A program made the position numbers and the translations under genes. From NCBI GenBank assembly GCA_028868995.1, contig JAGWTH010000007.1, positions 1-64,000 of the forward strand: DNA of 64,000 nt, in the 5' to 3' direction. The notes beneath the pieces were generated by a model that saw only the letters and a list, made by a program, of their open reading frames with translations, did no database searches and was not told the origin of the DNA. Positions within the stretch are counted from its first letter, which is position 1; every line of letters begins with the position of its first letter. Shown here piece after piece: positions 36,001-47,939 of the stretch. The DNA is from Burkholderiales bacterium (GTDB taxonomy: Bacteria; Pseudomonadota; Gammaproteobacteria; Burkholderiales; Burkholderiaceae_C).

Positions 36001-36927
36001 GCCACCGAGGGCATGCCCCGCATCCAGACGGACATCGACGCCTGCGAAGTGATCCTCCAGCTGGCGCCCGAGACCAACGGCCATGTCGCCGTCAAGGCCT
36101 GGGAGGCGCTGTCCAAGGCCACCGGACGCGATCACGCCCACCTGGCGCTGCACCGCGAGGACGAGAAGATCCGCTTCCGCGACATCCAGGCGCAGCCGCG
36201 CAAGATCATCAGCTCGCCCACCTGGAGCGGCCTGGAGAGCGAGAAGGTCTCGTACAACGCGGGCTACACCAACGTCCACGAGCTGATCCCGTGGCGCACC
36301 CTCACCGGGCGGCAGCAGTTCTTCCTGGACCACCCGTGGATGAACGCCTTCGGCGAGCAGTTCTCCAGCTACCGGCCGCCGGTGGACCTGAAGACCACGG
36401 GCGCGATCGCGGGCATCAAGCCCAACGGCAACCCCGAGATCCAGCTGAACTTCATCACCCCGCACCAGAAGTGGGGGATCCACTCGACCTACACCGACAA
36501 CCTGATCATGCTGACGCTCAACCGCGGCGGCCCGGTGATCTGGCTGTCGGAGGCCGACGCGAAGAAGGCGGGCATCGTCGACAACGACTGGGTGGAGCTG
36601 TTCAACGTCAACGGCGCCATCGCGGCGCGGGCGGTGGTGAGCCAGCGCATCAACCCGGGCATGGTGCTGATGTACCACGCGCAGGAAAAGATCATCAACA
36701 CCCCCGGCTCGGAGATCACCGGTGCCCGCGGCGGCATCCACAACTCCGTCACGCGCATCGTGGTGAAGCCCACGCACATGATCGGCGGCTACGCGCAGTT
36801 CAGCTACGGCTTCAACTACTACGGGACCATCGGCACCAACCGCGACGAGTTCGTGGTGGTGCGCAAGATGAACAAGGTCGACTGGATGGATGACGAGGTC
36901 GCGCAAGAACAAGGAGAACAGGCATGA
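33070..36927 (+). CDS. narG: Respiratory nitrate reductase alpha subunit
   Basis: 1,285 residues. The N-terminal FS0 iron-sulfur site is H-x3-C-x3-C (HGVNCTGSC near 46) with a distal cysteine in EPRGCARG. The molybdenum ligand is D242 in EQTDVPESADWYNS (D222 of Escherichia coli NarG). It reduces nitrate to nitrite with molybdo-bis(MGD) on the cytoplasmic side of the membrane. Residues about 324-348 are a Pro/Gly/Arg-rich insertion absent from other NarG proteins, encoded by a palindromic DNA segment, between YFDYEG and SPYFDDYARRFTDLP. The frame is kept throughout, so the gene looks functional. It overlaps narH by four bases (ATGA). Confidence 0.95.
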   Translation: MSHFLDRLTWFRQPRESFAGGHGQLTNEDRTWEQAYRDRWAHDKIVRSTHGVNCTGSCSWKIYVKGGIVTWETQQTDYPRTRWDMPNHEPRGCARGASYSWYLYSANRVKYPLVRGRLLKLWREARLTLPPVEAWSRIVGDAARRRSWQEVRGLGGFARASWDEVNEIVAAANIHTIRQYGPDRVIGFSPIPAMSMVSYAAGSRYLSLLGGVCMSFYDWYCDLPPASPQVWGEQTDVPESADWYNSGYIIAWGSNVPQTRTPDAHFFTEVRYKGTKTVAITPDYAEVSKLADLWIHPKQGTDAALAMAMGHVVLKEFYFDYEGRRAAPSPETPPGGADAARRPGGRSTSPYFDDYARRFTDLPMLVLLKEQVLPSGEKALVPDRYLRASDFNGRLGQANNPEWKTVAFGQDGKVVVPQGAVGFRWGPDGRADAGQWNLEAKEARHGAEVTLKLSSLEGDGATVRHEKVAFPYFGGIAHEHFPSSEHGDVLLRTVPVQDIRLGKEGEERHALVATVFDLQAAQYGVARGLPGEYAAANYDEDTPYTPAWQEKITGVPRQQVITVARQFADNADRTQGRSMVIIGAAMNHWYHCDMNYRGVINLLMLCGCIGQSGGGWAHYVGQEKLRPQTGWTALAFALDWIRPPRQMNSTSFFYAHTDQWRYEKLGVDEVLSPLADPKQYGGSLIDYNVRAERMGWLPSAPQLQTNPIQVVRDAAGGDVKDHVVKSLKDGSLKMSCEDPDHPANWPRNMFVWRSNILGSSGKGHEYFLKHLLGTSHGVQGKDLGRDEARPTEVVWHDQAPEGKLDLVVTLDFRMSTTCLYSDIVLPTATWYEKNDLNTSDMHPFIHPLSTAVDPAWESRSDWEIYKGFAQKLSELAPGHLGVEKEVVLSPLMHDTPAELAQPFGVADWKRGECELIPGKTAPNIAVIERDYPNLYKRYTALGPLMGKVGNGGKGISWNTQMEVLQLAELNGTVREPGATEGMPRIQTDIDACEVILQLAPETNGHVAVKAWEALSKATGRDHAHLALHREDEKIRFRDIQAQPRKIISSPTWSGLESEKVSYNAGYTNVHELIPWRTLTGRQQFFLDHPWMNAFGEQFSSYRPPVDLKTTGAIAGIKPNGNPEIQLNFITPHQKWGIHSTYTDNLIMLTLNRGGPVIWLSEADAKKAGIVDNDWVELFNVNGAIAARAVVSQRINPGMVLMYHAQEKIINTPGSEITGARGGIHNSVTRIVVKPTHMIGGYAQFSYGFNYYGTIGTNRDEFVVVRKMNKVDWMDDEVAQEQGEQA
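34036..34116. repeat. Palindromic GC-rich element inserted in frame in narG
   Basis: Contains C7-T-G7 (34064-34078), GCCGCC-A-GGCGGC directly after it, and CCAGG-CGG-CCTGG overlapping that. Three nested or adjacent hairpins in about 80 bases are unlike the surrounding codon-biased DNA. The encoded Arg/Pro/Gly peptide has no counterpart in NarG. The inferred length is a multiple of three because the frame continues into conserved sequence. Exact ends are estimated from where NarG similarity stops and resumes. Confidence 0.65.
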
Positions 36928-38459
36928 AAGTCCGCGCACAGATCGGCATGGTCCTGAACCTGGACAAGTGCATCGGCTGCCATACCTGCAGCGTGACCTG
37001 CAAGAACGTGTGGACCAGCCGGCCGGGCGTGGAGTACGCCTGGTTCAACAACGTCGAGACCAAGCCCGGCATCGGCTATCCCAAGGAATGGGAGAACCAG
37101 GGCAAGTGGAACGGCGGCTGGGTCCGCAACGCCGACGGCTCCATCGAGCCGCGCCAGGGCGGCAAGTGGAAGCTGCTGATGCGCATCTTCGCCAACCCGA
37201 ACCTGCCGCAGATCGACGACTACTACGAGCCCTTCACCTACGACTACCAGCACCTGCAGACCGCGCCCGAGGCTAAGGCAATGCCCACGGCCCGCCCGCG
37301 CAGCCTGATCACCGGCCAGCGCATGGAGAAGATCGAGTGGGGCCCGAACTGGGAGGAGATCCTGGGCGGCGAGTTCGCCAAGCGCAGCCGGGACGCCAAC
37401 TTCGCCGGCTTCGAGCAGGTGCAGAAGGAGATGGTGGGCCAGTTCGAGAACACCTTCATGATGTACCTGCCGCGCCTGTGCGAGCACTGCCTCAACCCGG
37501 CGTGCGCGGCCTCCTGCCCCTCCGGCTCGATCTACAAGCGCGAGGAGGACGGCATCGTCCTGATCGACCAGGACAAGTGCCGCGGCTGGCGCATGTGCGT
37601 CTCGGGCTGCCCCTACAAGAAGATCTACTACAACTGGCAGACCGGCAAGGCCGAGAAGTGCATCTTCTGCTACCCGCGCATCGAGGCCGGCCAGCCGACC
37701 GTCTGCTCGGAAACCTGCGTGGGCCGCATCCGCTACCTGGGCGTGGTGCTGTACGACGCCGACCGCATCGAGGAGGCCGCCAGCGTCGCCGACGAGCAGG
37801 ACCTGTACGAGGCGCAGCTGGGCCTGTTCCTGGACCCCCACGACCCGGCCGTAATCGAGCAGGCCCGCAGGGACGGCATCCCCGAAGCCTGGCTCGAGGG
37901 CGCGCGCAACTCCCCGGTGTGGAAGATGGCGATGGACTGGAAGGTCGCCCTGCCCCTGCACCCCGAGTACCGCACGCTGCCCATGGTCTGGTACGTGCCG
38001 CCGCTGTCGCCCATCACCTCCGCCGCCAACGCCGGCTGGCTGGGCACCAACGGCCAGCTGCCCGACGTGGCCGACATGCGCATCCCCGTGCAGTACCTGG
38101 CCAACCTGCTGACCGCCGGGCGCACCGGCCCGGTGATCCGCGCGCTGGAGCGCATGCTGGCCATGCGCGCCTACCAGCGCGGCCGGCACGTGGACGGCGA
38201 GGAGAACCTCGACGTGCTGAAGCAGGTCGGCCTCACCCAGGCCCAGGTGGAGGACATGTACCGCATCATGGCCATCGCCAACTACGAGGACCGCTTCGTC
38301 ATCCCCAGCACGCACCGCGAGTACGCGGAGAACGCCTTCGACGTGCGCGGCGGCTGCGGCTTCAGCTTCGGCAACGGCTGCTCCGACGGCACCAGCGAGG
38401 CGAGCCTGTTCGGCGGCACGAAGAAGCGGACCATCCCCATCGCCGTGGAGAAGGTGTGA
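36924..38459 (+). CDS. narH: Respiratory nitrate reductase beta (iron-sulfur) subunit
   Basis: 511 residues. Four cysteine clusters carry three [4Fe-4S] and one [3Fe-4S] centres: CIGCHTCSVTC (near 13), CEHCLNPACAASCP (near 185), CRGWRMCVSGCP (near 219, with the tryptophan that makes the [3Fe-4S] site) and CIFCYPRI...CSETCVGR (near 245-265). It passes electrons from the NarI hemes to NarG. Length and motifs match Escherichia coli NarH closely. It starts inside the narG stop and ends two bases before narJ. Confidence 0.96.
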   Translation: MKVRAQIGMVLNLDKCIGCHTCSVTCKNVWTSRPGVEYAWFNNVETKPGIGYPKEWENQGKWNGGWVRNADGSIEPRQGGKWKLLMRIFANPNLPQIDDYYEPFTYDYQHLQTAPEAKAMPTARPRSLITGQRMEKIEWGPNWEEILGGEFAKRSRDANFAGFEQVQKEMVGQFENTFMMYLPRLCEHCLNPACAASCPSGSIYKREEDGIVLIDQDKCRGWRMCVSGCPYKKIYYNWQTGKAEKCIFCYPRIEAGQPTVCSETCVGRIRYLGVVLYDADRIEEAASVADEQDLYEAQLGLFLDPHDPAVIEQARRDGIPEAWLEGARNSPVWKMAMDWKVALPLHPEYRTLPMVWYVPPLSPITSAANAGWLGTNGQLPDVADMRIPVQYLANLLTAGRTGPVIRALERMLAMRAYQRGRHVDGEENLDVLKQVGLTQAQVEDMYRIMAIANYEDRFVIPSTHREYAENAFDVRGGCGFSFGNGCSDGTSEASLFGGTKKRTIPIAVEKV

Positions 38460-38461
38460 GC

Positions 38462-39136
38462 ATGAAGAACACCAAGTACACCCTGCGGGCGCTGTCCCTG
38501 CTGCTCGGCTACCCCAACGCGCGGCTGCGCTCCCTGCTGCCCGACCTGGTCGGCGCCGTCAACGACGAAGCCGCCCTGCCCACCGCGCGCCGCGCCGAAA
38601 TCCAGGCGCTGGCGGCCGACCTGCTGCGCAGCGACCCCATCGAGGTCGAGGCGCGCTACGTGGAGCTGTTCGACCGCGGCCGCAGCACTTCGCTGCACCT
38701 GTTCGAGCACGTGCATGGCGACTCGCGCGACCGCGGTCCGGCCATGATCGACCTGGTCCGCCACTACGAGCAGGCCGGCCTGCTGCTGGGCGACGGGGAG
38801 CTGCCCGACCACCTGTGCGTGGTGCTGGAGTTCGCCTCCACCCAGCCGCCGGCGGCCGCGCGCGAGTTCCTGGGCGAGATGGCCCACATCCTGCGGGCGA
38901 TCTTCAGCGCCTTGCGCCAGCGCGAGAGCGGCTACGCCACGCTGCTGGCCGCCGTGCTCGAACTGGCCGGCCAGAAGGTCGAGGCCGTGCCGGTGGCGCC
39001 CGACGAGCCGCTCGACGCCAGCTGGGACGAGCCGCCGGTGTTCGACGGCTGCAGCACCCGCGGCCAGGCCGCTCCCGGCCAGCCGCAACCCGTGCGGATC
39101 GTGCGGCGCGACGCCGCGCAGGGAGAACGCGCATGA
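38462..39136 (+). CDS. narJ: Nitrate reductase molybdenum cofactor assembly chaperone
   Basis: 224 residues, all-helical TorD/NarJ fold. Signatures: LRALSLLLGYPNARLRSLLPDL at the start, then YVELFDRGRSTSLHLFEHVHGDSRDRGPAMIDL, the NarJ core motif. NarJ binds the NarG N-terminus and helps cofactor and Fe-S insertion; it is not part of the final enzyme. The ATG at 38462 is two bases after the narH stop, and its own stop overlaps narI by four bases. Confidence 0.93.
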   Translation: MKNTKYTLRALSLLLGYPNARLRSLLPDLVGAVNDEAALPTARRAEIQALAADLLRSDPIEVEARYVELFDRGRSTSLHLFEHVHGDSRDRGPAMIDLVRHYEQAGLLLGDGELPDHLCVVLEFASTQPPAAAREFLGEMAHILRAIFSALRQRESGYATLLAAVLELAGQKVEAVPVAPDEPLDASWDEPPVFDGCSTRGQAAPGQPQPVRIVRRDAAQGERA

Positions 39137-39852
39137 ACGACGTGAACCAGTTCCTCTTCGGCATCTACCCCTACGTCTGCCTGGCGGTGTTCCTCCTCGG
39201 CAGCCTGATCCGCTTCGACCGGGAGCAGTACACGTGGAAGAGCGATTCCTCGCAGCTGCTGCGCGCCGGCCAGTTGCGCTGGGGCAGCAACCTGTTCCAC
39301 GTCGGCGTGCTGTTCCTGTTCTTCGGCCACACGGTGGGCATGCTGACCCCGCACTTCGTCTACGAGCCCTTCATCTCGGCGGGCCACAAGCAGGTGCTGG
39401 CCATGGTGAGCGGCGGCATCGCCGGCGTGCTGGGCTTCGCCGGCGTGAGCATCCTGCTGCACCGGCGCCTCACGGACCCGCGCATCCGCCGCACCTCGCG
39501 CGCCTCGGACATCTTCCTGCTGGTGCTGCTGTGGGTGCAGCTGGCCCTGGGCCTCGCGACCATCCCGCTGTCGGGGCAGCACCTGGACGGAAGCATGATG
39601 ATGCTGCTGGCCGAATGGGCGCAGCGCATCGTCACCTTCCGCCCGGGCGCGGTGGAACTGCTGGATCCCGCGAGCTGGGTCTTCAAGCTGCACATGTTCC
39701 TGGGCATGACGGTGTTCCTGGTCTTCCCCTTCACCCGCCTGGTGCACGTGTGGAGCGGCTTCGGCACGCTGGCCTATGTCGTGCGGCCCTACCAGGTCGT
39801 GCGCACGAAGCGGCAACTCGGCGCGCAAGGCGTCGCGAGGAGGCAAGCATGA
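39133..39852 (+). CDS. narI: Respiratory nitrate reductase gamma (cytochrome b) subunit
   Basis: 239 residues with five transmembrane helices. Four heme-ligand histidines are recognisable: the pair in NLFHVGVLFLFFGHTVG (helix II), one in FKLHMFLGMTVFLVF and one in TRLVHVWS (helix V). It takes electrons from quinol on the periplasmic side and passes them to NarH. A longer upstream reading frame belongs to narJ; ATG 39133 overlaps the narJ stop (ATGA). Confidence 0.95.
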   Translation: MNDVNQFLFGIYPYVCLAVFLLGSLIRFDREQYTWKSDSSQLLRAGQLRWGSNLFHVGVLFLFFGHTVGMLTPHFVYEPFISAGHKQVLAMVSGGIAGVLGFAGVSILLHRRLTDPRIRRTSRASDIFLLVLLWVQLALGLATIPLSGQHLDGSMMMLLAEWAQRIVTFRPGAVELLDPASWVFKLHMFLGMTVFLVFPFTRLVHVWSGFGTLAYVVRPYQVVRTKRQLGAQGVARRQA

Positions 39853-40679
39853 GCGGCTGTGGTGGCGGAACCTGCACCTGTGGCGGCGGCGGCGGGACGG
39901 TCCAGGCCGAGGCGCCGGCAGCCGTGGCGATGGTCAACGGCATCGCCTTGCACGAGCCGGGCGAGCGCCTGGCGCCCGAGGACCTGCGCGAGCGCGCCTG
40001 GGCCGAACTGCTGCGCCAGGAGGCGGTGCGCCAGGGCCGCCTGCCGCGGCACCCGGGCCTGGAGGCCCCGGGCATCAGCCTCGGCGACGAGGCCGCGATC
40101 CAGTCCATGCTGGACGAGGCCGTTCCGATGCGCCAGCCCTCGCCCGAGGAATGCGAGCGCTTCTACGCGGCGCGCCGGCAGCAGTACAGCCAGGGCCGCG
40201 CCGCGCGCGTGCGCCACATCCTGTTCGCCGTCACCGGCGGCGTCGACGTGAACGCGCTGGCGAAGCGGGCCGAGCAGGCGCTGCTGGAACTGCTGCACCG
40301 CGACGCGCCCGCCGCGCGCTTCGCCGAACTGGCACGCGAGCTGTCCAACTGCCCCAGCGCTGCCGAGGACGGCGAGCTGGGCTGGCTGCGGCCCGAGGAG
40401 TGCGCACCGGAGCTGGTGGCCACCTTCTTCGACGAACAGGCGGCCATCGGGCTGCATCCGCGCCTGGTGCACAGCCGCTACGGCTTGCACATCGTCGACG
40501 TGCAGGAGCGCCGGGCCGGCACGCCCGTGGACTTCGCACAGGTGCGCGATCGCATCGCGATGGAGCTGGCGCAGCGCTCGCGCGCGACCGCCCTGCACCA
40601 GTACATCCGCCTGCTGGCCGGCCAGGCCCGGGTGGAAGGCGTGGAGCTGGACGCAGCGCAGACGCCGCTGGTGCAATGA
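39849..40679 (+). CDS. Parvulin-type peptidyl-prolyl isomerase with Cys/Gly-rich N-terminus
   Basis: 276 residues, start overlapping the narI stop (ATGA), so it is the last gene of the nar operon. A PpiC/parvulin domain spans about 115-215: RVRHILFAVTGG, FAELARELSNCPSAAEDGELGW and YGLHIVDVQER. It has no signal peptide. Instead it begins MSGCGGGTCTCGGGGG, three cysteines in a glycine tract that might bind metal. A parvulin is often found at this place (NifM-like or NarI-linked); it may fold or mature a nitrate reductase subunit in the cytoplasm. The link to Nar is by position only. Confidence 0.82.
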   Translation: MSGCGGGTCTCGGGGGTVQAEAPAAVAMVNGIALHEPGERLAPEDLRERAWAELLRQEAVRQGRLPRHPGLEAPGISLGDEAAIQSMLDEAVPMRQPSPEECERFYAARRQQYSQGRAARVRHILFAVTGGVDVNALAKRAEQALLELLHRDAPAARFAELARELSNCPSAAEDGELGWLRPEECAPELVATFFDEQAAIGLHPRLVHSRYGLHIVDVQERRAGTPVDFAQVRDRIAMELAQRSRATALHQYIRLLAGQARVEGVELDAAQTPLVQ

Positions 40680-40705
40680 ATCCCGCCGGCTCGGCGAGCC
40701 CGACA

Positions 40706-40747
40706 TTGACCCCCGACAAAGAGATTCCCGGTCGGCAGGACTAGGCT
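40706..40747 (+). promoter_or_regulatory. Degenerate FNR-like promoter before the nitronate monooxygenase gene
   Basis: TTGAC-CCCC-GACAA at 40706-40719 and TAGGCT at 40742-40747, a 22-base gap. The right half-site has two mismatches to ATCAA, so this is weaker than the other sites. Spacing and the TA-G-CT -10 resemble the usp and narX promoters. It lies in the only real gap (110 bases) between the nar operon and the nrdJ operon. Confidence 0.35.
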
Positions 40748-40789
40748 CCACTCCCGATGCCGGCTTCCGCCGGCCGGACGAGGAACACG

Positions 40790-42001
40790 ATGGACAGATC
40801 CACTCCGATCGGGCAGGCGCGCGCCGCGGGCCTGCAGCCCTGGACCTTTCACGGACGCACACTCGTCCCCATCGTGCAGGGCGGCATGGGTGTGGGCGTT
40901 TCCGCAGGGCGCCTCGCCGGCACCGTCGCCTCCTTCGACGCGCTGGGCACGATCTCCTCGGTCGACCTGCGCCGCCTGCATCCCGACCTGATGGAGCGCA
41001 CCGGCCACCTGGAAGGCCCCGAGGCCAAGGCGAGGATCGACGCGGCCAACCGCGAGGCGCTGGCGCGCGAGATCGCCCGCGCCCGCGCGCTCGCCGGCGG
41101 CCGCGGCCTCATCGCGGTGAACGTGATGAAGGCGCTGGACCAGTACGAGACCTACGTGCGGCAGGCGCTGGCAAGCGGCGCCGACGCGCTGGTGGTCGGT
41201 GCCGGCCTGCCGCTGGACCTGCCGGACCTGGCGCGGGACTTCCCCGGGGTCGCGCTGGTGCCGATCCTCTCCGACGCCCGCGGCGTACAGCTGCTGGTGC
41301 GCAAGTGGGAGAAGAAGGGCCGGCTGCCCGACGCGATCGTGATCGAGCATCCGCGGCTGGCGGGCGGGCACCTCGGCGCGGCCAAGGTGGCCGACCTGCA
41401 GGACCGCCGCTTCTACTTCGACGTGGTCCTGCCGGAGGTGCAGGCCTTCTTCCGCCAGGCAGGGCTGGAGGGGCGCATCCCCCTCATCGCCGCCGGCGGC
41501 ATCTCCACCGGCGAGGACATCCGGCGCCTGCAGGGCCTGGGCGCCGCGGCCGCCCAGCTGGGCACCGCCTTCGCAGTCACCTGCGAGGGCGACGCCAGCC
41601 AGGCCTTCAAGGAAGTGCTGGCGGGCGCGCGGCCCGAGGACATCGTGGAGTTCACCAGCGTCGCCGGCCTGCCGGCGCGCGCCGTGCGCACGCCCTGGCT
41701 CGCGAAGTACCTGCGCCTGCAGGAGCGCATGCAGGCCCACGCCCACGTCAAGGCCCATTGCACCCTGTGGTTCGACTGCCTGGCCCACTGCGGGTTGCGC
41801 GACGGCAACGCTTCCTGGGGCCAGTTCTGCATCGACAAGGTTCTTGGGCACGCCCTCGCCGGGGACGTAGCCAAAGGGCTATTCTTCCGGGGTGCGGGCC
41901 GCCTGCCCTTCGGCGACCAGATCCGCCCCGTGCGCGACCTGTTCGCCTGGCTGTTCGGCAGCCAGCCCGCATCCACCAACGCGGAGGTCCAGGCGGCATG
42001 A
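40790..42001 (+). CDS. Nitronate monooxygenase (2-nitropropane dioxygenase family)
   Basis: 403 residues. FMN-dependent TIM-barrel enzyme: PIVQGGMGVGVSAGRLAG near the start (phosphate/flavin region), DALVVGAGLPLDLPDL, IVIEHPRLAGGHLG with the catalytic-region histidines, and IPLIAAGGISTGEDI plus GAAAAQLGTAFAVTCE as the phosphate-binding C-terminal half. It oxidises toxic alkyl nitronates, or in some members reduces other nitro compounds. It overlaps nrdJ by four bases (ATGA), so it is transcribed with that gene. ATG 40790 is chosen over an ATG 33 bases upstream because it begins the conserved part and follows GAGGAACACG. Confidence 0.85.
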   Translation: MDRSTPIGQARAAGLQPWTFHGRTLVPIVQGGMGVGVSAGRLAGTVASFDALGTISSVDLRRLHPDLMERTGHLEGPEAKARIDAANREALAREIARARALAGGRGLIAVNVMKALDQYETYVRQALASGADALVVGAGLPLDLPDLARDFPGVALVPILSDARGVQLLVRKWEKKGRLPDAIVIEHPRLAGGHLGAAKVADLQDRRFYFDVVLPEVQAFFRQAGLEGRIPLIAAGGISTGEDIRRLQGLGAAAAQLGTAFAVTCEGDASQAFKEVLAGARPEDIVEFTSVAGLPARAVRTPWLAKYLRLQERMQAHAHVKAHCTLWFDCLAHCGLRDGNASWGQFCIDKVLGHALAGDVAKGLFFRGAGRLPFGDQIRPVRDLFAWLFGSQPASTNAEVQAA

Positions 42002-45000
42002 AGCGCGATCCTTCCCCGAACACCGTCCCCGCCCTCGCGCCGCAGGCGATCAGCCTCGACGTGCTGCGCGAGAAGTACCTCAAGGACGGCGAAGCCTCCG
42101 AGGCCGACCTGCTGCGCCGCGTGGCGCGGGCGCTCGCCTCGGTCGAGGCCGAGCCGCTGCGTGCCGACTGGGAGCGGCGCTTCTTCGACAACCTGCAGGC
42201 CGGGGCCATCGGCGCCGGCCGCATCATGAGCGCCGCCGGCACGCCGCTGCAGGCCACCCTCATCAACTGCTTCGTCCAGCCGGTGGGCGACTCGATCCAG
42301 GGCCGCGACGACGAAGGCTACCCGGGCATCTACGAGGCCCTGCGCGAAGCCGCCGAGACGATGCGTCGCGGCGGCGGCGTGGGCTACGACTTCTCGCGCA
42401 TCCGCCCGCGCGGCGCCGAGGTGCGCGCCACCGCCTCGCTCGCCTCGGGTCCGTGCAGCTACATGGACGTGTTCGACCATTCCTGCGCGACGGTCGAGAG
42501 CGCCGGCGCCCGCCGCGGCGCCCAGATGGGCGTGCTGCGCATCGACCATCCCGACGTCATGGAGTTCATCACCGCCAAGCGCACGCCGGGCCGGTGGAAC
42601 AACTTCAACGTCTCGGTCGCGGTGACCGACGAGTTCATCCGCACCCTGCAGGCCGGCGGCGACTGGTCGCTCGTGCACAAGGCCAGGCCCGGCCCGGGCC
42701 TCGTCGCCCAGGGCGCGCACCAGCGCCAGGACGGCCTGTGGGTCTACCGCACCCTGCCCGCGCAGCAGCTGTGGGACACGATCATGCGCTCGACCTACGA
42801 CTTCGCGGAGCCGGGCATCCTGTTCGTCGACACCATGAACCGCGACAACAACCTGCACTACGCGGAGCGGCTGGCGGCGACCAATCCTTGCGTCACGGCC
42901 GACACCTGGGTGATGACCACCGACGGCCCCGCACAGGTGGGCGACCTCGTCGGCCACCCCTTCACGGCGGTGGTCGACGGCAAGGCCTTCCCGGTTCTGA
43001 GCCGGGGCTTCTTCCCCACCGGCCGCAAGCCTGTGGTGAGGCTGGAGACCCGCGAAGGGCACCAGCTGCGCCTCACGCCCGACCATCGCGTGCGCCGGGT
43101 TGCCCGCAAGACGCGCTACGTCATGGAGATGGAGTGGGTCGAGGCGGGCCGGCTCGAGCCGGGCGACGAGGTGGTGCTGCACGACCACCATGCGATCGCG
43201 GGCTGGGAGGGGCGCGGCACGCAGGCCGAGGGCTACCTTCTGGGACTGCTGATCGGTGACGGCCGGCTGGGCGAGAGCAAGGCGGTCCTGTCGGTGTGGG
43301 CTCCCGAGCTGAAGGTGGTCGGAGGCGACGCGCCGGCGCTCGCGGCGACCGGCGCGGCCGGCATCGTGGCTGCCGTCGAGGCCGCCATCGCGACGCTGCC
43401 GCACCGGGCCGATTTCCGCAGCTTCCAGAAATCCCTGCCCCACGGGGAGGCCCGGCTCGCCTCCGCCGCGCTGCGGGACCTCGCCTTCTCCTTCGGCCTG
43501 CGCCCGGGCGCCAAGACCGTGACCCCGGCCGTCGAACGCGGCTCGGCCCGGTTCACGGCCGGCGTCCTGCGGGGACTGTTCGACGCCGACGGCGCGGTGC
43601 AGGGCAGCCAGGACAAGGGCGTGAGCGTGCGCCTGGGCCAGGCCGACCTGCGCCTGCTGCAGGCGGCGCAGCGCATGCTGCTTCGGCTGGGCATCGCCAG
43701 CACCATCTACCAGCAGCGCCGCGGGCCCTCCGAGCGCCCGCTTCCCGACGGGCGCGGCGGCCAGCGGCTCTATCCGTGCCAGGCCATGCACGAGCTCGTG
43801 GTCAGCGGCGAGAACCTGCGCATCTTCGCCGACCACGTGGACTTCTCCGGCACGGCCAAGGCTGCCCGCCTGCGCCAGGCTCTGGACAGCTACCGGCGCG
43901 CCTGCAACCGCGAAAGCTTCACCGCGAGGGTCCTGGACGTGGTTCCGGACGGCGAGGAGGAGGTCTACGACGTTACCGTCGCGGACGTGCACGCGTTCGA
44001 CGCCAACGGCCTGTACGTCCACAACTGCGGCGAGCAGCCCCTGCCCCCCTACGGTTGCTGCGACCTCGGCCCGGTGATCCTCACCCGCTTCGTGAAGAAC
44101 GCCTTCGGCTTCGGCGGCACGCCGGAGTTCGAGTTCGACCGCTTCGCGCAGGCGGTGGCGGTGCAGGTGCGAGCGCTGGACAACGTGCTGGACCTCACCT
44201 GGTGGCCGCTGACCCAGCAGCAGAAGGAATCGGCATCCAAGCGCCGCATCGGCGTGGGCTTCACCGGCCTGGGCAACGCGCTGGCCATGCTGCGGCTGCG
44301 CTACGACGCGCCCGAGGGCCGCGAGATGGCCACGCGCATCGCCCGCGCCATGCGCGACGCCGCCTATGGCGCCTCGGTGGAACTGGCCAAGGAGAAAGGC
44401 GCCTTCCCCCTGTTCGACGCCGGCAAGTACCTGGAAGCCGGCACCTTCGCCAGCCGCCTGGACGAGCCGCTGAAGCAGGCGATCCGCAAGCACGGCATCC
44501 GCAACAGCCACCTGCTGTCGATCGCGCCCACGGGCACCGTGAGCCTGGCCTTCGCCGACAACGCGTCCAACGGCATCGAGCCGGCCTTCTCCTGGACCTA
44601 CCGGCGCAAGAAGCGCGAGGCCGACGGCACGACCAGCGAGTACACGGTGGAGGACCACGCATGGCGCCTGTACCGGGCGCTCGGCGGCGACACGTCCCAG
44701 CTGCCGCCGTACTTCATCTCGGCACTGGAGATGCCCGCGGCGGACCACCTGGCCATGATGCAGGCGGTGCAGCCCTTCGTCGACACCGCCATCTCCAAGA
44801 CGGTCAACGTCCCCGCGGACTACCCCTACGCGGACTTCCAGGGCCTGTACCTCGAAGCCTGGCGCGCGGGCCTCAAGGGCCTGGCCACCTACCGGCCCAA
44901 CGAGATCCTGGGCTCGGTGCTGTCCACCGCGCCGGAGCCGGAAGCCCCCGCGCAGCTGCAGGAGCGCCAGGCCGACCCGATGCGCGCCATGATCGAGAGC

Positions 45001-45540
45001 CGCCCCAAGGGCCAGCTGCCCGCGGTGGTGGAGAAGATCGAGTACTGGACCCACCAGGGACGGCAGACGCTCTACATCGTGGTCTCCTTCCTGCCGGTGG
45101 CGGACGGCCGCGAGCGCGCGATCGAGTTCTTCATGCCCGTGGGCCAGAGCGGCGAGTCGCAGCAGTGGATCAGCTCCAGCATGCGCCTGCTGTCGCTGGC
45201 CGCGCGCGGCGGCTTCCTGGAGCGCGCCCTGGCCGACATGCGCAAGGTGACCTGGGACCGCGGCCCGGTGCGCCTGGGCACCTACGCCAAGGCCGACGGC
45301 ACCGCCGTACCGATGTGGCACGACTCCGAGGTCGCGGCCATCGCCTACGCCGTCCAGAACATCATCGCCCGCCGCCGGGGCGACCCGGTCGCCGCGCTGG
45401 CCACGCCGCCGGCCGCCACCGGGGCGACGCCGCCGACCATGGCCGGCGCGAAGTGCCCCGAATGCGGCGCGCACGCGATGATCCGCAAGGACGGCTGCGA
45501 TTTCTGCACGCAATGCGGCCACGTGGGAGCCTGCGGGTGA
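41998..45540 (+). CDS. nrdJ: Class II (B12-dependent) ribonucleotide reductase precursor with intein
   Basis: 1,180-residue precursor; 801 residues after removal of the 379-residue intein (residues 298-676). It reduces ribonucleotides to deoxyribonucleotides using adenosylcobalamin and needs no oxygen. Conserved residues: C91 in LINCFVQPVGDSI (redox pair), N296-P297 then, after the intein, C677-G-E679, equivalent to N437/C439/E441 of Escherichia coli NrdA where C439 carries the thiyl radical, and CC at 687-688 (partner of C91). The C-terminus has a zinc-ribbon-like CPECG...CTQCG swinging-arm motif. It overlaps the nitronate monooxygenase and nnrS genes by four bases on each side. Confidence 0.93.
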   Translation: MKRDPSPNTVPALAPQAISLDVLREKYLKDGEASEADLLRRVARALASVEAEPLRADWERRFFDNLQAGAIGAGRIMSAAGTPLQATLINCFVQPVGDSIQGRDDEGYPGIYEALREAAETMRRGGGVGYDFSRIRPRGAEVRATASLASGPCSYMDVFDHSCATVESAGARRGAQMGVLRIDHPDVMEFITAKRTPGRWNNFNVSVAVTDEFIRTLQAGGDWSLVHKARPGPGLVAQGAHQRQDGLWVYRTLPAQQLWDTIMRSTYDFAEPGILFVDTMNRDNNLHYAERLAATNPCVTADTWVMTTDGPAQVGDLVGHPFTAVVDGKAFPVLSRGFFPTGRKPVVRLETREGHQLRLTPDHRVRRVARKTRYVMEMEWVEAGRLEPGDEVVLHDHHAIAGWEGRGTQAEGYLLGLLIGDGRLGESKAVLSVWAPELKVVGGDAPALAATGAAGIVAAVEAAIATLPHRADFRSFQKSLPHGEARLASAALRDLAFSFGLRPGAKTVTPAVERGSARFTAGVLRGLFDADGAVQGSQDKGVSVRLGQADLRLLQAAQRMLLRLGIASTIYQQRRGPSERPLPDGRGGQRLYPCQAMHELVVSGENLRIFADHVDFSGTAKAARLRQALDSYRRACNRESFTARVLDVVPDGEEEVYDVTVADVHAFDANGLYVHNCGEQPLPPYGCCDLGPVILTRFVKNAFGFGGTPEFEFDRFAQAVAVQVRALDNVLDLTWWPLTQQQKESASKRRIGVGFTGLGNALAMLRLRYDAPEGREMATRIARAMRDAAYGASVELAKEKGAFPLFDAGKYLEAGTFASRLDEPLKQAIRKHGIRNSHLLSIAPTGTVSLAFADNASNGIEPAFSWTYRRKKREADGTTSEYTVEDHAWRLYRALGGDTSQLPPYFISALEMPAADHLAMMQAVQPFVDTAISKTVNVPADYPYADFQGLYLEAWRAGLKGLATYRPNEILGSVLSTAPEPEAPAQLQERQADPMRAMIESRPKGQLPAVVEKIEYWTHQGRQTLYIVVSFLPVADGRERAIEFFMPVGQSGESQQWISSSMRLLSLAARGGFLERALADMRKVTWDRGPVRLGTYAKADGTAVPMWHDSEVAAIAYAVQNIIARRRGDPVAALATPPAATGATPPTMAGAKCPECGAHAMIRKDGCDFCTQCGHVGACG
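42889..44025 (+). mobile_element. Intein with LAGLIDADG endonuclease, inserted before the catalytic Cys of NrdJ
   Basis: 379 residues in frame, from C298 (CVTADTWVMTTDG, splicing block A) to H675-N676 (block G, ANGLYVHN), followed by the extein cysteine C677. Block B is RLTPDHRV with H363. Two LAGLIDADG-type motifs are intact: YLLGLLIGDG (block C, D421) and VLRGLFDADG (block E, D531). Block F is EEVYDVTVADVHAF. Every residue needed for Cys1/Asn/Cys+1 splicing is present. GC content and codon use resemble the host gene, so acquisition is not very recent. Confidence 0.93.
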
Positions 45541-46793
45541 CCACCGGCGCGGGCGAGCCGCCGGCCCGGCCACGCTGGCGCTGGCGGCACGTCCTCGATT
45601 CGCCGCACCGCCTCGGCTTCCTGCTCGGCATGGCGGTGCTGGGCGCGAGCAGCACCTGGTGGGCGCTGGTGCAGCTGGATCGCTCGGGCCTCGGTCCGCC
45701 GCTGCCTTACGCCCGCTCGCCTTCGATCACGCATGGGGCGGTGATGGTGTTCGGCTTCATGCCCCTGTTCTTCGCCGGCTTCCTGTTCACCGCCGGACCG
45801 CGCTGGCTGGCGCTGCCGCCGGAGCCGGCCGCGCCGCTGGTGGCGCCCTGGGTCGCGCAGGCCGCGGGCTGGTTGCTGTGGCTCGCGGGCGCCCATGCCG
45901 GCACGGGGCTCGCGGCCGGCGGCCTGCTCGCGGAGCTGGCCGGCCTGGCGACCGTCACTTGGCGCTTCGCCCGGCGCGTGCGCGCGAGCCGCGCGCCGGA
46001 CCGCCTGCACCCGCGTGCCATCGATTACGCGCATGCGGTCGGTGTCGCCTGCCTCCTGGGCCTGCTGGCCGCCACGCTGGCCGGCGCCGACGGCGTGGCC
46101 CTGGCCTGCGTGCTCGCGGGGCTGTGGTGGTTCGTGGTCCCGGTCTTCCTCACGGCAGCTGATCGCCTGATCCCTTTCTTCTCGGCGGAGGCGCTGCCTT
46201 CGGCGCGCTGGCCGCTCGCCCAACACAGCCTGTCGCTGCTGCTCGCGCTGTCCGCCCTGGAAGGCGCGGGCGCCTGGCTGGACCTGTTCGCGGGCCGCGG
46301 CGGCTGGCTGTTCGCGCTGGGCGCGGCGGAGGCGCTGGCGGCCATCGCCCTGCTGGCGCTGGCCTTCGCCTGGGGCCGGGTGAAGCGCCTGTCCAGCCGC
46401 CTGCTGGCGATGTTCCATGCCGGCCTGCTGTGGCTGGGACTGTCGTTCGCGCTGGCGGCCGCCGGCCACCTGCTGCCTCCCGCCGACGGCGCCCCGGTGC
46501 TGCCGCTGGCGGGCCTGCACGCGCTGACCATGGGCTGCCTCGGCTCGCTGATGCTGGGCATGGTGAGCCGCATCTCCGCCGGCCACGGCGGCCGCCCCCA
46601 GGTCACGGACGACTGGCTGTGGGTCCTGTTCTGGCTGCTGCAGGCTGCGACGCTGCTGCGGCTGGCCGCCACCGTGCAACCCGTGCAGGCGCTGCTCACC
46701 GCGGCGGCGCTGCTGTGGGCTGGCACCATGCTGGCCTGGGGACTGAGACATGCGAATTGGTATGGACATCCACGCTACGAGCGCCGCCGCTGA
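45537..46793 (+). CDS. NnrS family membrane protein (second copy)
   Basis: 418 residues from a GTG that overlaps the nrdJ stop (GTGA). About 12 transmembrane helices. NnrS motifs are recognisable though diverged: SPHRLGFLLGMAVLG, ITHGAVMVFGFMPLFFAGFLFTAG (histidine and GFLFTAG as in NnrS), VPVFLTAADRLIPFFSAEAL and LTMGCLGSLMLGMVSRISAGHGGR. It probably performs the same NO-stress role as the copy at 28890 but has a different operon setting. An upstream portion of the same reading frame is a shadow of nrdJ. Confidence 0.85.
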   Translation: MTTGAGEPPARPRWRWRHVLDSPHRLGFLLGMAVLGASSTWWALVQLDRSGLGPPLPYARSPSITHGAVMVFGFMPLFFAGFLFTAGPRWLALPPEPAAPLVAPWVAQAAGWLLWLAGAHAGTGLAAGGLLAELAGLATVTWRFARRVRASRAPDRLHPRAIDYAHAVGVACLLGLLAATLAGADGVALACVLAGLWWFVVPVFLTAADRLIPFFSAEALPSARWPLAQHSLSLLLALSALEGAGAWLDLFAGRGGWLFALGAAEALAAIALLALAFAWGRVKRLSSRLLAMFHAGLLWLGLSFALAAAGHLLPPADGAPVLPLAGLHALTMGCLGSLMLGMVSRISAGHGGRPQVTDDWLWVLFWLLQAATLLRLAATVQPVQALLTAAALLWAGTMLAWGLRHANWYGHPRYERRR

Positions 46794-47394
46794 AGCGCCG
46801 GACACCGCCCTGTCCGGCGAGTGGGCCGCCGCGCTGATCCACGGCCGGCGCACGGTGCTGCCCAAGCGGCTGGCCGACCCGGGACCCGACCCGATGCAGC
46901 TGCAGCGCATCCTGGGCGCGGCCGCTGCGGCGCCGGACCATGGCGAGCGCCTGCCCTGGCGCTTCGTGATCGTGCCGCCGCCGGCGCGCGCCGCCCTGGG
47001 CGAGGCCTTCGCCGCCGCGCTGCGCGACCGCGACCCGCAGGCCACGCCGGAGCAGCTCGCGCAGGCGCGCGAAAAGGCTTTCCGCGCGCCGCTGCTGCTG
47101 CTGGCCGTGGCCGACCTCGGCGCCCCGGGCGACGAGATCCCGGCCGCCGAGCGGCTGGTCTCGGCCGGCTGCGCCATCCAGAACCTGCTGCTCATGGCCA
47201 CGGCCCTGGGCTTCGGCTCGGCGCTCACCAGCGGCAAGGCCATGGACTCCTCCGCCCTGCGCGGCCTGTTCGGCCTGCGAGAGCCGGAGCAGGCCCTGTG
47301 CTTCGTGAGCATCGGCACCATCGCCGGCGCGAAACGCGGCCGCAACCGGCCGCCCGTGGAAAGCTACGTGAGCGTGCTGCGGGAGGAACCATGA
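46750..47394 (+). CDS. Nitroreductase family protein, YdjA-like
   Basis: 214 residues. The FMN-dependent nitroreductase fold is shown by LQRILGAAAAAPDHGERLPWRFVIV (flavin phosphate region, as in YdjA APDH...PW.F), KAFRAPLLLLAVAD and SAGCAIQNLLLMATALGFGS, ending FVSIGTIAG. It reduces nitro or other electrophilic substrates with NAD(P)H. The start overlaps the upstream nnrS-like gene by 44 bases (an in-frame ATG at 46762 would reduce this to 32), and its end overlaps the hemerythrin gene by four bases. Confidence 0.85.
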   Translation: MRIGMDIHATSAAAEAPDTALSGEWAAALIHGRRTVLPKRLADPGPDPMQLQRILGAAAAAPDHGERLPWRFVIVPPPARAALGEAFAAALRDRDPQATPEQLAQAREKAFRAPLLLLAVADLGAPGDEIPAAERLVSAGCAIQNLLLMATALGFGSALTSGKAMDSSALRGLFGLREPEQALCFVSIGTIAGAKRGRNRPPVESYVSVLREEP

Positions 47395-47939
47395 CGCAGC
47401 CGATCCGCCTCGCCTCGCTGGTCTCCGGCCCCGCCGCCGGCTTCGAGGAACCCTTCGAGATGCTGGAAGCCTGCCACCAGCGGGTGCATCGCATGCTCGC
47501 GCTGCTGGCGCGGCTGCGCGAGCACATGAAGGCGCACGGCGCGGACACGCAGGCGCAGCAGGCCGCGCGCGACGTGATGCGCTACTTCGACCAGGCCGCG
47601 CCGCAGCACCACCAGGACGAGGAGCTGCACGTGTTCCCGCCGCTGCTGGCGCGGGGCGACCCCGCCGTCGCGGACGTGGTGCGCCGGCTGCAGCAGGACC
47701 ACCTGCGGATGGAATCGGCCTGGGCCGCGGCGCGGCCGGTGCTGTCGCTCGTCTGCGAGGGCCGCATCGACCGGCTGGCGCCGGACGACGACGCGCGGCT
47801 GGACGCCTTCGCGGGGCTGTACGACGCGCACATCCGCGCCGAGGAGGAGATCGCCTATCCGGCGGCGCAGGGAATGCTCGGCGAAGCCGCGCGTGCCGCG
47901 ATGGGCGAGGACATGATGCGCCGGCGCGGCGTGAAGTGA
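47391..47939 (+). CDS. Hemerythrin-like HHE-domain protein
   Basis: 182 residues, four-helix bundle. The di-iron ligand pattern is visible: H in ACHQRVHRML (near 29-33), HHQDEELHVFPPLL (H and E, near 66-73), QDHLRMES, and a final YDAHIRAEEEIAYP (H-x3-E). HHE proteins of this kind bind oxygen or NO, or (YtfE/DnrN type) repair iron-sulfur clusters after nitrosative damage. Last gene of the nmo-nrdJ-nnrS-nitroreductase run; the next gene converges one base after its stop. Confidence 0.85.
   Translation: MTQPIRLASLVSGPAAGFEEPFEMLEACHQRVHRMLALLARLREHMKAHGADTQAQQAARDVMRYFDQAAPQHHQDEELHVFPPLLARGDPAVADVVRRLQQDHLRMESAWAAARPVLSLVCEGRIDRLAPDDDARLDAFAGLYDAHIRAEEEIAYPAAQGMLGEAARAAMGEDMMRRRGVK

Follow-up and report, generated by a model that had tools for sequence, protein, structure and literature searches.

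An intein of the RIR1-b family directly before the predicted radical-cysteine codon of a Ramlibacter class II ribonucleotide reductase

The window, by which we mean the whole stretch of 64,000 nucleotides that was analysed, carries an nrdJ gene at 41998..45540 (stop included) that encodes the precursor of a class II ribonucleotide reductase with an intein inside it. This gene and all of the features described below lie on the forward strand. The frame opens with an ATG at 41998, closes with a stop codon at 45538-45540 and runs uninterrupted through 41998-45537, giving a precursor of 1180 amino acids. The protein matches Ribonuc_red_lgC and NrdJ_Z above their cut-offs, with the NCBIfam model NrdJ_Z (TIGR02504) scoring 544 bits against a cut-off of 400, and its family suggests that the enzyme is adenosylcobalamin-dependent. 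The subfamily model NF005401 reached 709 against a cut-off of 906 when the precursor was scored with the intein still in place.

From its frame, the precursor divides into three parts. An N-extein of residues 1-297 (41998..42888) ends in AATNP, a junction found in identical form in relatives, and is followed by an intein of 379 amino acids running from Cys1 to a terminal His-Asn (42889..44025). The C-extein, residues 677-1180 (44026..45537), starts with CGEQPLPPYGCC. The intein is thus placed between Asn296-Pro297 and Cys677-Gly-Glu, exactly to the base as the original prediction had described it, with NP before a Cys1-to-HN intein and C-G-E after it. The genome is a draft in 81 contigs, which leaves room for an artefact of assembly or contamination. 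Against this, the gene is a single uninterrupted frame, the GC content of the insert matches that of its flanks, and the like arrangement occurs in isolates, for example Ramlibacter albus GTP1 (L074), so that we give an artefact a negligible probability.

The insert contains each element found in class 1 inteins: Cys1, the TxxH of block B, the Asp of block F, the C-terminal His-Asn and a Cys, Ser or Thr at +1. Cys1, the N-terminal splicing nucleophile (42889..42891), is invariant in 109 aligned inteins, 93 of them distinct; the counts of 109, 110 and 111 rows used here include repeats because the named loci and the genome sets overlap. Block B reads LTPDH (intein residues 62-66, 43072..43086), and its T63 and H66 are at least 95% conserved. 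Blocks F and G, DVHAFDANGLYVHN, occupy intein residues 366-379 (43984..44025) and end in Asn676 of the precursor, encoded by codon 44023-44025. Between the splicing blocks lie two LAGLIDADG motifs, GYLLGLLIGDG at intein residues 115-125 (43231..43263) and LRGLFDADG at residues 227-235 (43567..43593), the second within a Pfam LAGLIDADG_3 match at residues 223-317. No second LAGLIDADG_3 match was found elsewhere in the genome.

Profile scores and structure prediction agree with these motifs. In Pfam, the insert matches Intein_splicing with 40.4 bits (cut-off 35.8) and LAGLIDADG_3 with 82.8 (cut-off 22.5), and in NCBIfam it matches intein_Nterm with 30.3 (cut-off 24.5) at residues 1-69 and intein_Cterm with 22.5 (cut-off 15.6) at residues 358-379. 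The predicted structure of the insert, made from 39 sequences, has a mean pLDDT of 89.8, and the 16 PDB entries that match it best are all inteins or intein endonucleases, PI-SceI, TliVMA and PI-PfuI among them. A chance resemblance can be excluded. Two motifs together with a matching fold are what is seen in intein-encoded LAGLIDADG homing endonucleases, and the window intein is a full-length class 1 intein with both a splicing and an endonuclease part, its splicing activity being predicted from conservation. The model of the full precursor is weak (mean pLDDT 68.8, pTM 0.52). At this low confidence, its intein scores mostly 70-93 in blocks of 10 residues, with 51 and 52 as the lowest, and the loops 83-92, 290-297, 677-690 and 842-859 fall below 50. 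These loops might be read as an unassembled NrdJ active site, a fit that is too weak to use.

The residue directly after the intein, Cys677 (44026..44028), becomes residue 298 once the protein is spliced. In an alignment with E. coli NrdA, the NrdA of the same genome, four intein-free NrdJ and two NrdE, mature residue 298 falls on Cys439 of E. coli NrdA. A phmmer alignment to T. maritima NrdJ (1xje) places Cys91 (42268..42270), Cys677 and Cys688 (44059..44061) on residues 134, 322 and 333, respectively; Cys91 and Cys688 are invariant in 34 precursors. We take residue 322 of the T. maritima enzyme to be the radical carrier and residues 134 and 333 to be the reducible active-site pair. Because Cys677 aligns with Cys439, the radical cysteine doubles as the +1 splicing nucleophile, which bears out the original prediction that one cysteine would serve first in splicing and then in catalysis. 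It follows from this anatomy that the unspliced precursor would be unable to reduce ribonucleotides. We found no statement in the literature that the +1 cysteine of RIR1-b inteins is the radical cysteine, a weak negative since the search did not cover the 1998 SPbeta papers.

The site and the intein family were catalogued by 2014, and the window intein is not new in kind. The accessible part of a 2014 survey (PMC4071816) assigns the inteins of Acidovorax sp. CF316 and NO-1, of Delftia and of Polaromonas JS666 to rir1-b, along with those of Methylococcus capsulatus, Thermococcus kodakarensis and numerous others. Both Acidovorax inteins were recovered in our scan (CF316 as L096, NO-1 as L102), with 68% and 64% identity, respectively, over 379 residues. 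They share the host protein family and the identical junction, and it is on these two that the placement of the listed rir1-b alleles at the NP/Cys junction rests. Since both are listed as rir1-b and were recovered here, the window intein is a further member of the catalogued allele. It differs from the alleles in that part of the survey by its host genus and species, and no distinguishing feature was found relative to them.

The scan covered a collection of 84,980 species and returned at least 430 relatives; the best 80 of these were retained as named loci. Among these best 80 of at least 430, the intein lies between NP and C(G/A)E in every case (80/80), and it ends in HN in 79 and in SN in one. 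The SN intein (L060, genome G111) has an otherwise intact junction. By title, the hosts of the same best 80 are Betaproteobacteria, including Polaromonas, Acidovorax, Hydrogenophaga, Rhodoferax, Delftia and Roseateles; the exceptions are a few labelled merely Proteobacteria or Pseudomonadota and one MAG labelled as Chitinophaga (L095). The latter, titled Chitinophaga pinensis, carries a betaproteobacterial nrdJ, and since its extein groups with Malikia it is probably mis-binned.

Other inteins sit at or near the same codon. The inteins of SPbeta phage bnrdE and of the NrdE of a Miltoncostaea oceani plasmid also lie directly before the equivalent cysteine column (NL|CSE) and are related to the window intein at 26-32% identity, but their hosts are class Ib NrdE proteins, their -1 residue is Leu and they end in VTGN rather than VHN. 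The Bacillus prophage site goes by the name RIR1-i in the accessible text of PMC1635734. A second NrdJ intein lineage, found in the genus (L009, genome G004) and in the family (L155, L159 and L160), shares the NP|C junction but is only ~30% identical to the window intein and ends in VTGQ. It is nearer to the SPbeta and Miltoncostaea NrdE inteins, at 34-39% identity. Inteins that end in Gln can splice.

Two class I NrdA inteins from the same bacterial family (L157 in G067 and L158 in G097) are likewise related, endonuclease-bearing and located in the same active-site strand. In contrast to the window intein, they follow the catalytic cysteine instead of preceding it (SSNLC|C...N|TEI), a shift of one residue, and their +1 residue is Thr. 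The NrdJ-1 split intein from a marine metagenome has, by its name, a class II reductase host, and its native exteins are given as NPC and SEI in the accessible part of PMC13123727; according to the same text it differs in being split, in lying one residue later, after the NPC cysteine, in having Ser at +1 and in not tolerating Pro at -1. The intein of the Aquifex aeolicus R2 protein (NrdB) also separates catalytic residues of a reductase, the iron ligands Glu228 and His231, but it resides in the small subunit and is reported to raise iron loading, as described in the available portion of PMC8772380. Inteins of several lineages, in more than one class of the enzyme, have thus entered at the peptide bonds on either side of the catalytic cysteine.

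The viral contig, phage and plasmid collections yielded no close donor. The viral contig scan with the intein gave two loci, and neither could be recognised as a gene for a reductase. In the phage collection there were 18 matching records at 29-31% identity; all come from phages of Bacillus or Staphylococcus, and most are annotated as reductase. Two records in the plasmid collection match the intein.

Within the genus, seven of 60 genomes have an intein match, six at 58% identity or more (the window's own included) and L009 at 32%. In the family the figure is 36 of 299 genomes at E<=1e-20, with 34 of the matches in NrdJ at NP|C and two in NrdA. The 34 NrdJ inteins include three of the second lineage, one that is reduced (L156) and one that is without a readable C-terminal junction (L069). 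The reduced intein, from genome G197, has 277 residues, is found at NP|C and ends in Lys-Asn; its LAGLIDADG motifs are unrecognisable by eye. Two inteins, L071 (G279) and L069 (G348), contain a similar extra segment (ACRTLGV...HSQP), which resembles a dispersed repeat that has inserted into the intein. The frame of L071 stays open, for an intein of 438 amino acids, while that of L069 stops soon after the segment. Additionally, L072 (G191) has GHG in place of GDG in its first LAGLIDADG motif along with a deletion, and its endonuclease is apparently in decay.

NrdJ is present in 38 of the 60 genus genomes by table count. The genes of 34 were read, leaving out G028, G032, G034 and G045; seven contain an intein and 27 do not. 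On the NrdJ tree of these 34 rows, the seven intein rows require seven changes, the maximum, compared with a mean of 6.5 for shuffled rows, and the starred branches force six. The intein is therefore not clustered by descent, in a scatter that cannot separate gain from loss. A direct comparison comes from L006, which has an intein, and L026, which has none: their flanks are ~92% identical over 600 bases on each side, and L026 shows a clean, exact empty site.

Trees of inteins and exteins were built from 51 rows, comprising 45 of the 75 usable named loci plus six; L074 repeats L004 in this set, and L119 and L008 have long branches. The intein of L006 groups with those of Polaromonas and Rhodoferax, and its extein groups with Ramlibacter (support 94, not starred). 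Five of the seven Ramlibacter rows in the intein tree (four distinct) form one clade, with L006 and L008 outside it, and because of this single clade much of the inheritance within the genus may have been vertical and accompanied by losses. Genome G046, the source of L006, has 9% contamination, yet a single frame joins its intein to its extein. A rise in identity near the site, which co-conversion would leave, was not seen in 50-base bins across six intein/empty and five intein/intein pairs. Among 12 close pairs that do not overlap, dN/dS ranged from 0.055 to 0.267 in the splicing part, from 0.059 to 0.482 in the endonuclease and from 0.055 to 0.16 in the extein. Both halves of the intein are under constraint, with purifying selection in the relatives.

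The residue at -1 is Pro in 111 of 111 junction rows. The accessible text of PMC13123727 states that Pro at this position blocks or harms splicing of NrdJ-1 and describes it as generally incompatible. Since Pro is invariant here, the RIR1-b-type family must tolerate it, and the window intein family is either adapted to a -1 Pro or splices slowly. The Mth RIR1 intein presumably has a native Pro at -1 as well. An unfavourable -1 residue could also be taken to mean that the window intein is decaying or does not splice at all, thereby inactivating nrdJ, and the genome does encode a class I NrdAB (NrdA and NrdB on contig 36) that could carry the cell. We regard this as very unlikely: the intein has intact, conserved splicing blocks, the -1 Pro is common to all the rows, and the exteins are open and retain Cys91, Cys677 and Cys688.

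Upstream of nrdJ are narH, narJ, narI and a gene for a PPIC-type prolyl isomerase (36924..40679), followed by a nitronate monooxygenase-like gene (40757..42001) whose stop codon overlaps the nrdJ start (ATGA). Directly after nrdJ lies an NnrS-family gene (45540..46793, start codon provisional). The region 36924-47939 forms a nitrate/NO cluster around nrdJ in which a nitroreductase and a hemerythrin are also present. A search of the genome for the class III reductase NrdD gave no match, and the same search found NrdD in six of 14 genomes as a control. Because NrdD was not found, NrdJ is the only oxygen-independent reductase recognised in this genome.

The original prediction also held that the insertion point could be a control step, with redox conditions that block the splicing cysteines limiting dNTP synthesis. 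Stated for this denitrifying host, splicing would pause when Cys1 or Cys677 is oxidised or nitrosated, and this would gate NrdJ and with it the dNTP supply. A precedent exists in the DnaBi1 intein of M. smegmatis, which is inhibited by oxidative and nitrosative stress according to the accessible text of PMC6195587, and both the missing NrdD and the position of nrdJ between nar genes and nnrS are in keeping with the proposal. However, a redox-gated intein is expected to have a conserved internal cysteine to trap the splicing cysteine, and besides Cys1 none was found; the next best position has Cys in 26 of 109 rows (21 of 93 distinct). No N-extein cysteine occurs at -1 to -8 in 111 rows. One is present at -9 in 97 of the 111, a position that is Ala in the window protein. 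On the other side of the junction, cysteines at +12 (110/110) and +11 (109/110) are conserved in the extein and near in sequence, and could be possible partners for the splicing cysteine. In addition, the 27 of 34 intein-free NrdJ genes in the genus show that host function does not need the intein, and class I NrdAB can cover aerobic, oxidising conditions. An anaerobic bottleneck at NrdJ maturation is conceivable, but the proposed control step is unsupported by these observations, and we consider conditional splicing improbable. Marginally less probable still is the specific form in which the intein gates the anaerobic dNTP supply, with NO or oxidation blocking two maturation cysteines and so delaying DNA synthesis until NO has been cleared.

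Taken together, the best account of the locus, to which we assign a probability of about 0.93, is a selfish element of the RIR1-b family that splices and homes, residing at an essential codon of Ramlibacter NrdJ. In this element, Cys1 would attack at Pro297, the chain would pass to Cys677 and Asn676 would cyclise, restoring NP-CGE, and NrdJ would accordingly become active only after splicing. The endonuclease would home into nrdJ alleles that lack the intein. As a target the catalytic codon has two advantages, since potential recipients share it and an imprecise loss of the intein destroys the enzyme. Persistence of such an element would require no benefit to the host.

As a discovery the locus is modest, since the position and the intein family were already on record by 2014. 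Tolerance of Pro at -1 is a better biochemical question than redox control. The locus offers a textbook-clean case in which the +1 nucleophile is the radical cysteine of the host enzyme and closely related intein-free alleles exist within the genus, and the pair of genes with and without the intein is a convenient natural test of what the intein costs or gains its host.
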